Shown: positions 48,564 through 53,547 of the stretch, piece by piece
Numbering within the stretch: the first letter of the stretch is position 1
Layout: each line of letters starts with the position of its first letter
Origin: Croceibacterium aestuarii
Lineage (GTDB): Bacteria; Pseudomonadota; Alphaproteobacteria; Sphingomonadales; Sphingomonadaceae
Length of the DNA: 64,000 nucleotides
Direction of reading: 5' to 3'
NCBI RefSeq assembly: GCF_030657335.1
Contig: NZ_CP131039.1
Coordinates: 1,054,001 to 1,118,000 of the forward strand
The notes under the pieces: generated by a model
What the model was told of the DNA's origin: nothing
Databases searched by the model: none
What the model saw: the letters and a program-made list of their open reading frames with translations, nothing else
Position numbers and translations under genes: made by a program

Positions 48564-49703
48564 TCAAGGTGTCGGCAGCTGCTCCCAGAGTTTCCTGCGC
48601 GTTTCTATCATGCGGATACGATCCGCCTCCGGCATCACACTTAGGAAGTCTTTGAGGAGAGCATCGACCGCGTCCATCACGCGGGCGCTCGTGCCGCGAA
48701 ACCCCTTTAGCGTGCGGAACGCGATCGGTTCGACCGCAGCGACTGAGTCGAAGCGAGCGATGCGCTCATCAGCTGAGGGATGTGTGTCGCCAGTCGGCAT
48801 TGCAGCCCCAAGCGCGTGTTCAAACCGACGCAGCATCTCAAGCGCCTTGAGCATGATTACGCCGCCCGCACCAGAGGCCAGATACGGGTTCCATATCGGA
48901 GTGCGATCGCGTTCCCCCATCGGCCTACAAAGTCTCAGCGCGAACTGGTCGGCCTCAAACTCTTCTGCGCGAGCGTCTGCAGCCATGTCTCGGCCATGCC
49001 CATGATGATGGTGTCCGTATTCGTGCGCTATGACAAATATTTCCATCGCACGGGCTACTTGTTCGACAAGTGGAAGCAGAGCGGGTTCCGATGGTTCGAA
49101 CGGCACTGTGCCGTTAGTTCCAGTCATCGCGAACGACATGAAGGTGCGGTTCCAATAAAGTGCGAGAGGCATATTCGTCCGCAGGAGCAGTTTGGCCTCT
49201 GAGAGCGCGAAAGAATCCGACTGCCAATAAACTGGATCAAGCATAATCGTGCGATAGAAAGCCTTTGCGACAATGCCGCAAAAGCGGAAGGTGAATGCAC
49301 CAACCGAGACAATGCTTTGCTCGGTCATTATCACGCCTGCTTTCGATGCAAAGGGCCCGGTGATTGGCTCGATGCCTCGTGCGACACTACGATAGGTGTC
49401 TAGGCCTTGTCGCGCCATCTCGGCCTCGACGTCGTCGCAAAGCGATGCGTGGAAGGCTTCGGCCGAGCGATTGACGCCGGGGCTTGTAGACGGAGCAGCC
49501 TCATCTCGTCGTGAGCTTAACGCAAGAAGCTCATCGGCTTGCTGCTCACTCCAACCAGCTGCTTTGAAGCTTGCTCGTGCATGCTCCTCGTCGCCGCGAG
49601 GATCATATTCTGGGTCCATCACAGCGGCGCCAGGGTGGGCGGCTGCACGCTCAAACATTTGCGACCAAAGGTCCGTTGCAGCTTCGTTGCTTTCTTCATC
49701 CAT
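48564..49703 (-). CDS. HExxH zinc metallopeptidase (M48-like)
   Basis: 379 residues from ATG 49703. Zinc site IAHEYGHHHHGH near residue 255 followed by a downstream Glu in AEEFEADQFALRL, as in M48-type peptidases, but no transmembrane anchors. N-terminal 100 residues are acidic and low-complexity. Base composition is lower in GC than typA next door. It is divergent from the ImmA/macrodomain gene, so it may be part of the same acquired unit or a separate passenger. Confidence 0.7.
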   Translation of the reverse strand: MDEESNEAATDLWSQMFERAAAHPGAAVMDPEYDPRGDEEHARASFKAAGWSEQQADELLALSSRRDEAAPSTSPGVNRSAEAFHASLCDDVEAEMARQGLDTYRSVARGIEPITGPFASKAGVIMTEQSIVSVGAFTFRFCGIVAKAFYRTIMLDPVYWQSDSFALSEAKLLLRTNMPLALYWNRTFMSFAMTGTNGTVPFEPSEPALLPLVEQVARAMEIFVIAHEYGHHHHGHGRDMAADARAEEFEADQFALRLCRPMGERDRTPIWNPYLASGAGGVIMLKALEMLRRFEHALGAAMPTGDTHPSADERIARFDSVAAVEPIAFRTLKGFRGTSARVMDAVDALLKDFLSVMPEADRIRMIETRRKLWEQLPTP

Positions 49704-49830: not shown

Positions 49831-49852
49831 CATCTCAAGGTCATTTGAGATG
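49831..49852. promoter_or_regulatory. Inverted repeat in the promoter of the acquired operon
   Basis: CATCTCAA-6 nt-TTGAGATG, perfect 8-bp arms, ending 63 nt before the ImmA-macrodomain start in a 212-nt AT-richer divergent gap. Candidate operator; no HTH gene sits in the operon. Confidence 0.5.
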
Positions 49853-49915: not shown

Positions 49916-51250
49916 ATGACAAGCGCACCCTCCATTAACTGGACTAACTCCTCGGTTCGGGCCTTCGCCAAGAACAGTGATCCACGCATAGCTATTGAAA
50001 AGGCGGCGCGAGAGCTCGTTTTGAAAGCACGCGAGAAGGGTTGGGAAGGCCCGCCATTTAACCCCCTACACATCGCTGAAATGCTCGGGGTCCAGATGGA
50101 AGCTAATTCAAGCGTGGCCGATGCCCGACTGTTGGCAACCGATGTGGGACCTAAGATTCAGTTCAATCCTCAACAACCGAGAGAGCGAGTGCGTTTCTCG
50201 ATCGCTCACGAAATCGCACACCTTCTCTTCCCTGACTGGTCGGAGCAGATTCGCAATCGAGGCGGGGATACAACACCTGACGATTGGCAGTTGGAAATGC
50301 TGTGCAATCTGGCCGCTTCTGAGTTCGTGCTTCCAATCGGCAGCCTATCAGCCACAGAAAACATTCTTCCAATCGAAGATTTGATGCTCCAGCGCCGAGA
50401 ATTTGACGTTTCCGCTGAGGCCTTTCTTATCCGATTGGCAAAGATATCTAGTCGACCGATAGGAGTTTTCGTCTCGTCGCCTACGGTTCTTGAGGACGGG
50501 ACCCGCCACTACAAAATCGACTATTTCGTCAGCTCGCCCACCGCGCCAAGGGTGCGATTGTCGGGGATGACTATCCCGGACGATAGCATCGTGCATCGGT
50601 GCACTGCCATAGGGCACACGGATCGCTCGGTTGAATATTGGGTGACCGATGCTCCAATCCAGATCGAATGTGTTGGCCTAACGGCATATCCGGGAAGCAT
50701 CTACCCAAGAGTGGCTGGTCTGCTCAGATTTGACCGGACCCAAGAGAACCATCTTCCGATACGTTTGCTGCATGGAGATGTTCTTGAACCTCGCAATGGT
50801 GGCAAGAAGATCATTTGTCAGCTGGTCAATGACAAGGCCATCAAATGGGGAGGTGGCGTCGCGCGGAAGATTGCGAAACGCTTCGCTGGCGCGGAAGAGG
50901 CATACTCCGAGCAAGTCAAACAAATCCGGCAGCGCGATCGTTTGGGAAGAACGATATTTTCAGAAGCCAATGACAACCTAACCATCGCAAGTCTGATAGG
51001 GCAGGAGGGATTCGGACCATCCCTTTTCCCCCGAATTAGGTATTCCGCACTACAATCCTGTCTTGAACAAGTTGCCGATCGTGCTGCAACCATTGGGGCG
51101 AGCATTCATATGCCTAAGATCGGGACGGGCTCGGCGGGCGGCGACTGGTCCACTATTGAAGAAATACTTGATGATGTAATGGTTCGGGCAGGTCTGTTTG
51201 TGACCGTATATGATGTCCCACCGAAGCGCGTGCAGCTGGAGTTGTTATAG
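49916..51250 (+). CDS. ImmA/IrrE zinc peptidase fused to a TARG1/DarG-like macrodomain
   Basis: 444 residues. Residues 40-210: ImmA/IrrE domain with FSIAHEIAHLLFPDW (H98, E99, H102) and a third ligand in NLAASEFVLP (E136). Residues 285-440: macrodomain with HGDVL, ICQLVNDKAIKWGGGVARKI and SIHMPKIGTGSAGGDWSTIE, ending VTVYDV, which closely resembles TARG1/ALC1 and the DarG antitoxin, enzymes that remove ADP-ribose from protein or DNA. Stop is directly followed by the GTG of the next gene. I know no characterised protein with this pairing. Confidence 0.8.
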   Translation: MTSAPSINWTNSSVRAFAKNSDPRIAIEKAARELVLKAREKGWEGPPFNPLHIAEMLGVQMEANSSVADARLLATDVGPKIQFNPQQPRERVRFSIAHEIAHLLFPDWSEQIRNRGGDTTPDDWQLEMLCNLAASEFVLPIGSLSATENILPIEDLMLQRREFDVSAEAFLIRLAKISSRPIGVFVSSPTVLEDGTRHYKIDYFVSSPTAPRVRLSGMTIPDDSIVHRCTAIGHTDRSVEYWVTDAPIQIECVGLTAYPGSIYPRVAGLLRFDRTQENHLPIRLLHGDVLEPRNGGKKIICQLVNDKAIKWGGGVARKIAKRFAGAEEAYSEQVKQIRQRDRLGRTIFSEANDNLTIASLIGQEGFGPSLFPRIRYSALQSCLEQVADRAATIGASIHMPKIGTGSAGGDWSTIEEILDDVMVRAGLFVTVYDVPPKRVQLELL

Positions 51251-52882
51251 GTGGCTGTGGGGGGCGCAAATCTTCGCATCGTCTTACTTTCTGGGCCAAT
51301 CTGTTCCGGCAAGTCGGCCTTGGTACGGCTCCTAGAGAAAAAGCATGGTGCCAAGATCATTAAGACACGAGAGCTCATACTTAAGAAGGCTCCTAGAACT
51401 AAACGAGAGCGCAAATCCCTTCAGCGGGCGGGTCAGAAGCTCGACCGAGCGGACGGCGGTGCGTGGGTCGGTGAGGCACTGCAGCGTACCATCGACAGCT
51501 CTGCGACAGGACGGACGCCTAAGGGCCTCTATGTCGTCGACTCTGTCCGCATCTTAGGTCAAATAGAGGCTATTCGGCGCGCATACGGTGCCGAAGTTCA
51601 TCACATTCATCTAACCGCTACGGAAGAGGAACTTCGCAAGCGCTACGAGGATCGTAGCAGGGAAGACGATGAGGCGGTCGAGTATGACGACCTGAAGCGA
51701 AATCAGACCGAACGTCAAATCGAGAGTCTCGCGGAAGTCGCGGACATCGTCGTCTCGACGGATCGCTGCAGTGAAGAAGCCGTCCTTGTTCGGGCAACCG
51801 CGCTTCTAAACCTCTATCCGCGGTCAAATGATGCCCTCGTTGACGTGCTGATTGGAGGTCAATTCGGCAGTGAAGGCAAGGGAAACATCGTGGGGCACAT
51901 TGCGCCGGAATACGATCTTCTTGTGCGGGTCGGCGGCCCTAACGCAGGGCATCAGGTTTACGCAGAGCCTAAGCCGGAAAAATACTATCATTTGCCTTCG
52001 GGCACGCAGCGGGCGCCGAACGCGAAGCTGCTACTCGGCCCTGGTGCCGTAATCTACCCGAAAAAGCTTCTCGCAGAGATTGTAGAGCACAAAATCAATA
52101 CTGAGAGGCTGACGATCGATCCGCGAGCCATGATTATCACTGACGCGGACCGCGAAGAGGAGGAGGAGCGGTTTGGCAGCATTAGCTCGACCGCACAGGG
52201 CGTTGGGATCGCTTCAGCGCGAAAAATGACAGGTCGGTCGGACTATAAAGACAAGAAGGCCGCGTTCCTCGCCCGCGACTGCGAAGATCTTCAGCCTTTT
52301 TTGGGAAGCGCGCGTCAACTTTTGGCAGACGCTATCGTGGCCGGCCAACGCATCCTGTTGGAGGGCACCCAAGGCACGGGACTAAGTCTTCACCACGGTG
52401 ACTATCCCCATGTCACTACGAGGGATACGACGGTGTCGGGATGTCTCGCTGATGCCGGTATTGCACCTTCAAACGTACGGAAGATCATTATGGTCTGCCG
52501 CACATATCCAATTCGAGTGGGTGGGCCGTCTGGTCCGATGGCACATGAGGTAGATATGGCGGAAATCCATCGGCGCAGCGGCATTCCGCTCGAGGAACTC
52601 GAGAAAAACGAACGGACGACCACTACTGACAGGCCACGTCGAATCGCCGAATTCGACTGGCTACAGTTTCGCGACTCAGTCCAGCTTAATGGTCCGACCG
52701 ACATCGCGTTGACATTTGTCGACTATTTCGACGTGAAGAATCGAAAGGCATATCGTTTTGAGCAGCTCTCAGATGAGACAATTAGCTTCGTGGAAGAGAT
52801 TGAGAGGATATCAGGTCGGCCCGTCTCTCTCCTCTCTACGGATTTCAACTGGCGAAACGTCATTGATCGGAGGGCGTGGTGA
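51251..52882 (+). CDS. P-loop kinase domain fused to a divergent adenylosuccinate synthetase
   Basis: 543 residues. Residues 1-190: nucleotide/nucleoside kinase-like P-loop domain, GPICSGKS at 15-22 and VVDSVRILGQIEAIRRAYG. Residues 197-543: PurA fold. IGGQFGSEGKG replaces GDEGKGK, so the catalytic Asp13 of E. coli PurA is Ser207; NAGH retains H41; TTTTDRPRR retains the aspartate-binding loop; LTFVDYFD has Phe489 where Lys331 stacks guanine, while Asp491 (D333) remains. Phage PurZ shows related changes as I recall. GTG start abuts the previous stop; next gene overlaps by 4 nt. Confidence 0.8.
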   Translation: MAVGGANLRIVLLSGPICSGKSALVRLLEKKHGAKIIKTRELILKKAPRTKRERKSLQRAGQKLDRADGGAWVGEALQRTIDSSATGRTPKGLYVVDSVRILGQIEAIRRAYGAEVHHIHLTATEEELRKRYEDRSREDDEAVEYDDLKRNQTERQIESLAEVADIVVSTDRCSEEAVLVRATALLNLYPRSNDALVDVLIGGQFGSEGKGNIVGHIAPEYDLLVRVGGPNAGHQVYAEPKPEKYYHLPSGTQRAPNAKLLLGPGAVIYPKKLLAEIVEHKINTERLTIDPRAMIITDADREEEEERFGSISSTAQGVGIASARKMTGRSDYKDKKAAFLARDCEDLQPFLGSARQLLADAIVAGQRILLEGTQGTGLSLHHGDYPHVTTRDTTVSGCLADAGIAPSNVRKIIMVCRTYPIRVGGPSGPMAHEVDMAEIHRRSGIPLEELEKNERTTTTDRPRRIAEFDWLQFRDSVQLNGPTDIALTFVDYFDVKNRKAYRFEQLSDETISFVEEIERISGRPVSLLSTDFNWRNVIDRRAW

Positions 52883-53547
52883 CCGAAGCAGAGCTTGAAG
52901 AGCTGATCAATGAATGCCCTACGCTTTATCACATGGCGGAGCGAGGCTCATGGGATTCGATACAGCAATTCGGTCTTATGAGTACCAGCGCTCTCTTGGA
53001 CCACTATTCCGTCAACCCGCCGAAGCGCACCGAGATCGAAAGTCAACATCGCCCCGAAAGCGTCGAAGTGACAGGTAATGGCCTGCCACGCGCCGTCGTG
53101 CGTGACCAAATTCCGATGAGCGACGCGGGTCTGAGACGGGCCTTGCCCGACCGGCTCTCTCCAGCGGATTGGTATGAGCTACTGAACGCGAAAGCATTTT
53201 TTTGGCTTTCGGAGAAGAGGCTTCACAAGCTCACAAATGCCAAGGCGTACCGTGACCAAGAGCACGATGTCCTTGAAGTTGATACACGATCGCTAATTGA
53301 GGCTCATCGAGATGCAATTTGGCTTTGCCCGATCAACAGCGGGTGCACCAAACCGATGCCGCATCCCAGAGATGAAACTATTTTCGCGCGCATATCAGAC
53401 TATCCCTATTCTCACTGGCGGGAAAGACGTGGCCGTCAAGAGCGCGTAGTCGAATTGGCCGTTGATCATTCGGTCGAGGACATTCGCAACCACGTGAAGC
53501 GCGTCGTCGTTAAGCGAGGCACCGAGGTCTTGAGAGTCGTTCAATGA
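52879..53547 (+). CDS. DUF7002-family protein (possible ADP-ribosyltransferase-like toxin)
   Basis: 222 residues. TLYHMAERGSWDSIQQFGLM, then SQHRPESVEV, VRDQIPMSD, WYELLNAKAFFWLSEKRLHK, YRDQEHDVLEVDTRSL and VELAVDHSVEDI. The YH-x-GL start is like that of ART-fold proteins (DarT, RES), with the possible third catalytic residue E192; this resemblance is weak and I mark it as inference. GTG at 52879 overlaps the previous stop (GTGA) with GGAGGG 5 nt upstream. Closes the operon. Confidence 0.65.
   Translation: MTEAELEELINECPTLYHMAERGSWDSIQQFGLMSTSALLDHYSVNPPKRTEIESQHRPESVEVTGNGLPRAVVRDQIPMSDAGLRRALPDRLSPADWYELLNAKAFFWLSEKRLHKLTNAKAYRDQEHDVLEVDTRSLIEAHRDAIWLCPINSGCTKPMPHPRDETIFARISDYPYSHWRERRGRQERVVELAVDHSVEDIRNHVKRVVVKRGTEVLRVVQ

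Follow-up and report, generated by a model that had tools for sequence, protein, structure and literature searches.

The open reading frame at 49916–51250 of the window, the 64,000-nucleotide stretch of Croceibacterium aestuarii DNA that was analysed, encodes a fused peptidase–macrodomain protein. On balance, this protein (gene 1) is best explained as the part that controls a mobile system of three genes and acts as its antidote, the other two being a kinase–synthase fusion (gene 2) and a DUF7002 protein (gene 3). The system would combine reversible ADP-ribosylation with the synthesis of 2-aminoadenine nucleotides, and its function is probably anti-phage. The operon context, with genes 2 and 3, was absent from the preliminary description of this DNA. 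The features are as follows.

48564–49703, minus strand: divergent zincin peptidase gene, M48-like; start near 49703 placed from its relatives
49831–49852, no strand: perfect 8-base inverted repeat CATCTCAA-N6-TTGAGATG between the M48-like gene and the operon
49916–51250, plus strand: gene 1, CapP/IrrE-type M78 metallopeptidase with a sensor-like region (residues ~17–277) fused to an SCO6735-type macrodomain (~278–435)
50207–50221, plus strand: HEIAH zinc-binding motif, residues 98–102; HExxH whole in 18 of 20 aligned rows
50825–50857, plus strand: macrodomain VNDKAIKWGGG, residues 304–314
51002–51004, plus strand: Gln363 codon, equivalent of the SCO6735 catalytic Gln85; Gln in 20 of 20 aligned rows
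51110–51148, plus strand: macrodomain MPKIGTGSAGGDW, residues 399–411
51251–52882, plus strand: gene 2, GTG start, P-loop kinase (~9–180) fused to a PurZ-type synthase (~197–541)
51869–51871, plus strand: Ser207 codon (motif GGQFGSEGKG), where PurA has its essential Asp13
52876–53547, plus strand: gene 3 (DUF7002), a predicted DarT-like ADP-ribosyltransferase sharing 7 bases with the end of gene 2

Gene 1 reads through 444 amino acids on the plus strand without an internal stop. Pfam placed Peptidase_M78 at residues 77–174 (30.7 bits against a curated cut-off of 22, E = 3.1e-7) and Macro at residues 307–417 (28.3 bits, curated cut-off 22, E = 1.8e-6). The AlphaFold model was built from 20 aligned rows, the window and 19 of the 24 related loci described below (L050, L052, L061, L067, and L069 were left out), and reached a pLDDT of 87.8 and a pTM of 0.86. 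Since the same fused frame was found in other genomes at 39–86% identity, the fusion is not an assembly artefact but real. The preliminary description had named an ImmA/IrrE peptidase fused to a macrodomain, with both motif sets complete. This held: both domains exceed their cut-offs, the fold is modelled, the fused frame recurs, and HEIAH, the invariant E127 and E136, VNDKAIKWGGG, and MPKIGTGSAGGDW are all in place.

Structure comparison of the model matched residues 17–277 with CapP (Z = 15.4 over 225 residues), followed by a M. tuberculosis regulator (Z = 14.3) and PprI/IrrE (Z = 13.8). In the model, the N-terminal region takes up the fold of a peptidase with its sensor region. E127 and E136 were invariant in 20/20 aligned rows, and we take these two residues to be the candidates for the third zinc-ligand Glu. 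The HExxH motif was altered in two rows: H98 is replaced by Arg in L058, where the second gene is broken as well, and E99 by Asp in L063. Gene 1 resembles CapP, PprI (IrrE), and ImmA in its HExxH peptidase and sensor-like region. It differs from these proteins by the added macrodomain and by the lack of an HTH domain or a recognised adjoining HTH repressor gene; no HTH family exceeded its Pfam cut-off in gene 1 or the four neighbouring open reading frames of the window. CapP, like PprI, responds to single-stranded DNA. PDB entry 8sln contains PprI with ssDNA, according to its title.

The macrodomain half is, by sequence and model comparison, an ALC1-class domain of the SCO6735/BT1257 type rather than TARG1 or DarG proper. 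In the structure prediction suggested earlier as a check, the macrodomain fold was kept. Residues 278–434 yielded Z values of 24.8 for BT1257 and 21.8 for SCO6735, with lower values for DarG (18.3), TARG1 (18.1), and Poa1p (18.0). Searching the PDB sequences with gene 1 gave E values of 7.8e-24 for BT1257 (2fg1) and 1.7e-23 for SCO6735 (5e3b); with the family profile, they improved to 2.1e-42 and 4.5e-40, ahead of ALC1, Poa1p, TARG1, and DarG. The identity to the best structure match (SCO6735/BT1257) was 36%. Residue 407, which we take to be the TARG1 Asp125 site, is Ala or Gly in the aligned rows. The catalytic Lys of TARG1 and DarG, as placed by the portion of PMC9411070 used here, is absent from gene 1, and Gln363 occupies its site in 20/20 rows. 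SCO6735 itself, as described in that portion, lacks TARG1 Lys84/Asp125 and DarG Lys80, and carries an essential Gln85 at the Lys position; it takes off the thymidine mark of DarT and inhibits DarT by interaction. The pairing of Gln85 with Gln363 comes from an alignment with the SCO6735 sequence that takes account of a 20-residue tag in the numbering of the chain. From the label 'TARG1/DarG-type' given to the domain earlier, the ALC1-like class can be retained, and the subgroup has to be changed to SCO6735/BT1257. Gene 1 shares with these two proteins the best sequence and structure match, the catalytic Gln, and the ALC1 class. The solved proteins are macrodomain-only chains, whereas the gene 1 domain is fused to a peptidase and lies in an operon with a predicted ADP-ribosyltransferase.

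This predicted transferase is gene 3, which has GGAGG ahead of its start. The sole family it matched was DUF7002 (PF22531, E = 2.6e-74), for which Pfam gives no function; Pfam DarT (PF14487) did not match, and a search of open-access papers, with preprints outside its scope, found no literature on DUF7002. The structure model of gene 3 (pLDDT 94) returned DarT proteins in all seven top PDB rows, with Z values from 10.7 to 8.3. DarT1 (8baq) led with Z = 10.7 at an rmsd of 3.3 over 162 aligned residues, followed by DarTG (7omu, Z = 9.9) and the remaining five DarT rows (Z = 8.9–8.3). Tpt1 tied with the lower DarT rows (Z = 8.2 over 92 residues), and other ADP-ribosyltransferases were below. Foldseek also ranked DarT1 best (E = 3.6e-4), with modest TM values of 0.36–0.38. 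DUF7002 had no meaningful match among PDB sequences, and its profile comparison with DarT was weak (26% probability, E = 7e-4 with the wider alignment; 5.7% probability in an earlier, narrower comparison). This weak alignment pairs the NAD-binding His stretch and sets R59 against an invariant DarT Arg. DUF7002 is therefore linked to DarT through structure, and a DarT-like ADP-ribosyltransferase fold is predicted from the model. H19, R51, R59, N154, and E193 were invariant in all 27 rows selected for the DUF7002 alignment. The key residues of DarT1 are H17, R52, N104, and E152, according to the section of PMC11543638 used here. When residues are paired by their order and by the weak alignment, H19, R51/R59, N154, and E193 would form the pattern expected from DarT1.

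With a DarT-like protein encoded two genes downstream as the likely ADP-ribose donor, the macrodomain more probably reverses its partner's modification than simply senses it. The earlier idea of a sensor protease linked to ADP-ribose recognition is plausible. The arrangement resembles DarTG (DarT1–NADAR and DarT2–DarG) in that a DarT-fold ADP-ribosyltransferase, here a predicted one, is encoded with a macrodomain in a small mobile operon. It differs in several points. DUF7002 falls outside Pfam DarT. The DarG macrodomain is N-terminal and uses Lys80, as far as the part of the literature used here describes it, whereas that of gene 1 is C-terminal on an M78 peptidase and carries Gln363. Here, the kinase–PurZ gene lies between the macrodomain and transferase genes, and we know of no DarTG counterpart of it.

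The GTG start of gene 2 is the first base past the gene 1 stop. Residues 9–180 were nearest to AdkA-like proteins in the PDB (6.9e-8), and this kinase domain matched the kinase part only of the PADLOC dCTPase model (E = 7.5e-11). Residues 197–541 matched adenylosuccinate synthetase. General scores placed this domain closer to PurA: among PDB sequences, archaeal PurA (5k7x, 9.7e-52) came ahead of PurZ (7odx, 1.1e-26), and PRK04293 adenylosuccinate synthetase (263.9 bits) exceeded the NCBIfam PurZ model, which reached 197.5 bits, below its cut-off of 300. The diagnostic residue pointed to PurZ. In the gene 2 alignment, which comprised the window, 19 of the 24 loci, and 8 other loci (L010, L011, L013, L050, L052, L058, L061, and L067 were left out), Ser replaced Asp13 of PurA in 28/28 rows. 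Asp13 is 99% conserved in the PurA group and Ser is found in all 147 phage PurZ-group sequences, according to the portion of PMC12884076 used here. A 40-row tree put the synthase domains of the system and seven phage PurZ on one side of a 100/100 split, and four PurA and one deazapurine-cluster synthase on the opposite side. In a 51-row tree, from which L016 and L069 were dropped, the PurZ–PurA split was supported at 100/99, and all kinase-fused forms fell into one group of 34 (100/100) with cellular and IMG/VR copies mixed. Both trees are unrooted, have a small comparison set (the four PurA and the one deazapurine-cluster row), and contain some long branches. The Ser residue, the trees, a separate ordinary PurA elsewhere in the host genome, and the gene neighbours of some IMG/VR copies described below favour a PurZ-type synthase with 2-aminoadenine-type chemistry, the putative substrate following from kinship.

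Gene 2 thus shares with PurZ of the phage Z-cluster (PurZ, DatZ, MazZ, DmtZ) the Asp13-to-Ser exchange and the grouping on trees. It differs by its N-terminal kinase fusion, its cellular and transferase-linked setting, its score under the NCBIfam PurZ cut-off, and archaeal PurA as the nearest solved sequence. PurZ chemistry has so far been known from phages and a few archaea, as stated in the section of PMC12884076 cited here. Gene 2 is also like AvcD, the anti-phage dCTP deaminase, in joining a P-loop kinase-like domain to a nucleotide-altering enzyme; it has a PurZ-type synthase instead of the deaminase, and Pfam found no cytidine deaminase domain in gene 2.

A gene 1 profile scan of an 84,980-species collection found at least 24 loci, a lower bound because the search depends on short peptide patterns. 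The full order of peptidase–macrodomain, kinase–synthase, and DUF7002 on one strand was present at 20/24 loci, counting L065 (by Pfam), L050 (at a contig edge, where the gene 1 start is missing and the gene 2 match is interrupted), and L061 (broken frames). The four exceptions were L052, where the gene 2 match ends near the contig end, L058, with gene 2 broken and the first His of HExxH lost, L067, with a shortened macrodomain, and L069, where the fusion gene is split and genes 2 and 3 are present. The junctions between genes 1 and 2 and between genes 2 and 3 recur in L038, L047, L048, L049, L051, L053, and L054. The loci are partly non-independent: L050 agrees with L039 in length and matches, identical accessory proteins are found in L035 and L046, and L097 and L099 look alike. 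Operon-bearing records came from Alphaproteobacteria, Deltaproteobacteria, Acidobacteria, Verrucomicrobia, and Planctomycetota, many of them metagenome assemblies.

No full-length gene 1 match was found among 97 relatives, and none at E = 1e-15 or better in the 397 other genomes of the phylum sample. Six relatives from the family and order had partial matches at 28–31% identity, five to the peptidase part and one to the macrodomain part. DUF7002 matched in 11 of 385 class-sample genomes, a count that starts from DUF7002 and would miss gene 1 genomes lacking it. Three of these had gene 1 (G000, G183, G162), two a plasmid-like form (G256, G420), three decayed or fragmentary copies (G409, G444, G174), and three distant ones (G430, G274, G282). 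The operon is rare, patchy, and mobile. An ordinary housekeeping or stress operon, in which ADP-ribosylated DNA is repaired and nucleotides are salvaged outside any conflict system, would fit the DNA-damage induction of SCO6735 (reported in the part of PMC11833690 used here) and the ordinary-looking neighbours at some loci. This explanation is nonetheless very unlikely given the patchiness among relatives, the spread over distant phyla, the conserved transferase partner, and the decayed copies.

Plasmids carry a second form of the system. There, DUF7002 followed a gene 2 relative (45–49% identity) in 8/8 full-length cases, five of them on conjugative plasmids. Another partner was an HD protein (PHROG dNMP phosphatase, 6.5e-63; PDB Atu1052, 1.6e-26), which adds a further likeness to the phage Z-cluster. 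This form also carries a highly conserved protein of ~455 residues, p455 (L008–L015, L043, L044). It matched no known family, and by eye we suspect a PEP-synthase-like fold. No macrodomain was found within the 6-kb flanks. In the class sample, the plasmid-like form was located on a 163-kb contig (L043) and a 3.2-Mb contig (L044). At L017 and L018, DUF7002 stood without gene 2 nearby, and no macrodomain was found at lone DUF7002 loci. The plasmid form and the lone DUF7002 loci suggest that the macrodomain is not an obligatory antidote. The plasmid form points to kinase–PurZ plus DUF7002 as the cellular core, with the protease–macrodomain as one of at least two control modules. Apart from these forms, a Sinorhizobium medicae plasmid (L016, 5296–9937) encodes a kinase-free PurZ-like gene, a relative of the HD phosphatase, a dCTP-deaminase-like protein under the Pfam cut-off, and a weakly ThiF-like protein. 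A plasmid cluster at L077 (4438–10692), annotated with FolE, PurA-like, PurB, QueE, IMP dehydrogenase, nitrile hydratase, and QueC, looks like deazapurine biosynthesis. At L090 (1417–3516), a DarT-family gene is followed by an apparent ADP-ribosylglycohydrolase, recognised by eye, in the place of DarG.

At L063 and L064, a deoxynucleoside kinase directly follows DUF7002. This kinase and the dNMP phosphatase of the plasmid form point to deoxynucleotides. AvcD and dGTPases halt phage DNA synthesis by nucleotide depletion. A comparable starvation defence, in which gene 2 drains dGMP/dGTP or builds toxic 2-aminoadenine nucleotides while DUF7002 and the fusion mainly regulate, would account for both partners and for the dCTPase-like match of the kinase domain. 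The phage Z-cluster proved toxic in E. coli, where Z took the place of 12.1% of the adenine in plasmid and 3.9% in chromosomal DNA, according to the part of PMC8342488 cited here. We regard this explanation as unlikely, as it does not account for the DarT-like enzyme, which accompanies the cellular copies more constantly than any other partner (8/8 plasmids and 20/24 macrodomain loci).

Kinase-fused synthases were also found in 11 IMG/VR contigs, that is, 10 full-length loci and one contig whose two halves appear as L101 and L112, with 80 of 108 loci kept. In the fetched stretches, DUF7002 was present in three (L092, L093, L098) and not in eight. L095, L096, and L097 adjoin genes for DNA polymerase A, DnaB helicase, or dNMP kinase. 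Near the copies in L094 and L100, a gene joins a DmtZ-like nucleoside-deoxyribosyltransferase to a MazG-like pyrophosphatase, another likeness to the Z-cluster. Enzymes of this sort have been reported in Z-phages in the section of PMC12884076 used here. The contigs in which DUF7002 was not found include L094–L097, L099, L100, and L103; some of them have Pol I, a UDG–Pol I fusion, DnaB, or DmtZ/MazG-like genes nearby, and these seven possibly represent undescribed Z-DNA phages. In L098 (4989–7884), an additional lone kinase gene lies ahead of kinase–PurZ and DUF7002.

The replication modules around the IMG/VR homologues, the PurZ kinship, and the conjugative plasmids would also suit a self-marking function, in which modified bases protect the DNA of the element or the host from nucleases while DUF7002 and the macrodomain edit the modification. 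A modification of the free pool would, however, spread over the entire chromosome, and Z synthesis is toxic to E. coli in the cited part of PMC8342488. Inspection of cellular copies by eye revealed no dedicated DNA polymerase next to those looked at. These points make self-marking distinctly improbable.

Several cellular copies have defence genes nearby, according to PADLOC models. L038 lies near a CBASS effector and cyclase and type I restriction, and L066 near type I restriction and AbiEii. L036, L047, and L062 have type I restriction next to them, L054 has a methyltransferase, and L064 has a candidate defence protein. The plasmid copies L012 and L011 adjoin SIR2 and a candidate defence protein. 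These proteins were hand-picked as defence-like without a background set, and no rate can be read from their number; the genes around L048 and L051 look ordinary. In the window, the M48-like gene has its longest open reading frame reaching 49880 from a TTG. Its relatives (37–40% identical) directly follow DUF7002 at L046/L035, L049, and L053, and in broken frames at L061, so the window copy is likely an accessory gene.

Three ideas about the control and location of the operon were dropped. In the 21 relatives examined, the perfect repeats found upstream did not include the palindrome at 49831–49852, which also has a terminator-like score, and a shared operator was rejected on this ground. LexA/SOS control was likewise rejected, as matches to GTTC-N7-GTTC were scattered only (L049, L058). 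Promoter-like sites in the region numbered 0, against 2.2 in shuffles. A defence hotspot beside typA was also rejected: the relatives G001–G004 have other genes there, and no clean empty site was found. In G004, typA and the flanking transporter are ~15 kb apart, and no part of the operon was recognised by eye. In the same genome, which belongs to the same genus, a duplicated typA 3′ fragment lies ~2 kb past the intact gene (L184, 2158–2559), a sign of an earlier insertion at that site.

In the preferred explanation, a reversible ADP-ribosylation module with a PurZ arm, DUF7002 would use NAD+ to ADP-ribosylate a nucleobase or nucleotide. The gene 1 macrodomain would take the ADP-ribose off again, as its SCO6735 kinship suggests. 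A signal of damage or infection, possibly single-stranded DNA, would switch on the CapP/PprI-like peptidase, which would then cleave a partner that sets the activity of the system. PurZ kinship and the phage context suggest that gene 2 encodes an enzyme for a purine nucleotide of the 2-aminoadenine type, with dGMP and aspartate as the most likely starting compounds; its kinase domain would either supply this pathway or complete it. DarT1 attaches ADP-ribose to the 2-amino group of guanine, according to the section of PMC11543638 used here. 2-Aminoadenine keeps this group, so DUF7002 and gene 2 could share a product; alternatively, the nucleotide and ADP-ribose arms may hit the invader separately. 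Given the toxicity of the phage Z-cluster in E. coli, making Z could also serve as a weapon in its own right. The most likely purpose would be defence against phages or other mobile DNA. A more specific version, which we consider a long shot, is a cellular defence in which 2-aminoadenine nucleotides are made and ADP-ribosylated at the 2-amino group, in DNA or free. Replicating invader DNA would be Z-marked and then blocked, and the protease–macrodomain would sense damage and clean host DNA.

A reversible-ADP-ribosylation operon with a PurZ arm is apparently undescribed. The open-access literature without preprints held no relevant precedent for a macrodomain with ImmA and adenylosuccinate synthetase in defence, and no AvcD-related precedent for the system. 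Queries in open-access literature for DarT with IrrE gave, among the matches listed, general ADP-ribosylation papers only, and those for PurZ with ADP-ribosylation or bacterial immunity gave papers unrelated by title. If our explanation is true, reversible nucleic-acid ADP-ribosylation extends to the DUF7002 family, and a macrodomain antidote is hard-wired to a sensor protease. PurZ chemistry would gain a cellular home, joined to ADP-ribosylation in one mobile operon. The role of 2-aminoadenine or its precursors in bacterial immunity becomes a testable question, and should the Z-marking defence be true, the Z-base trick of the phage would have been turned into an immune weapon.
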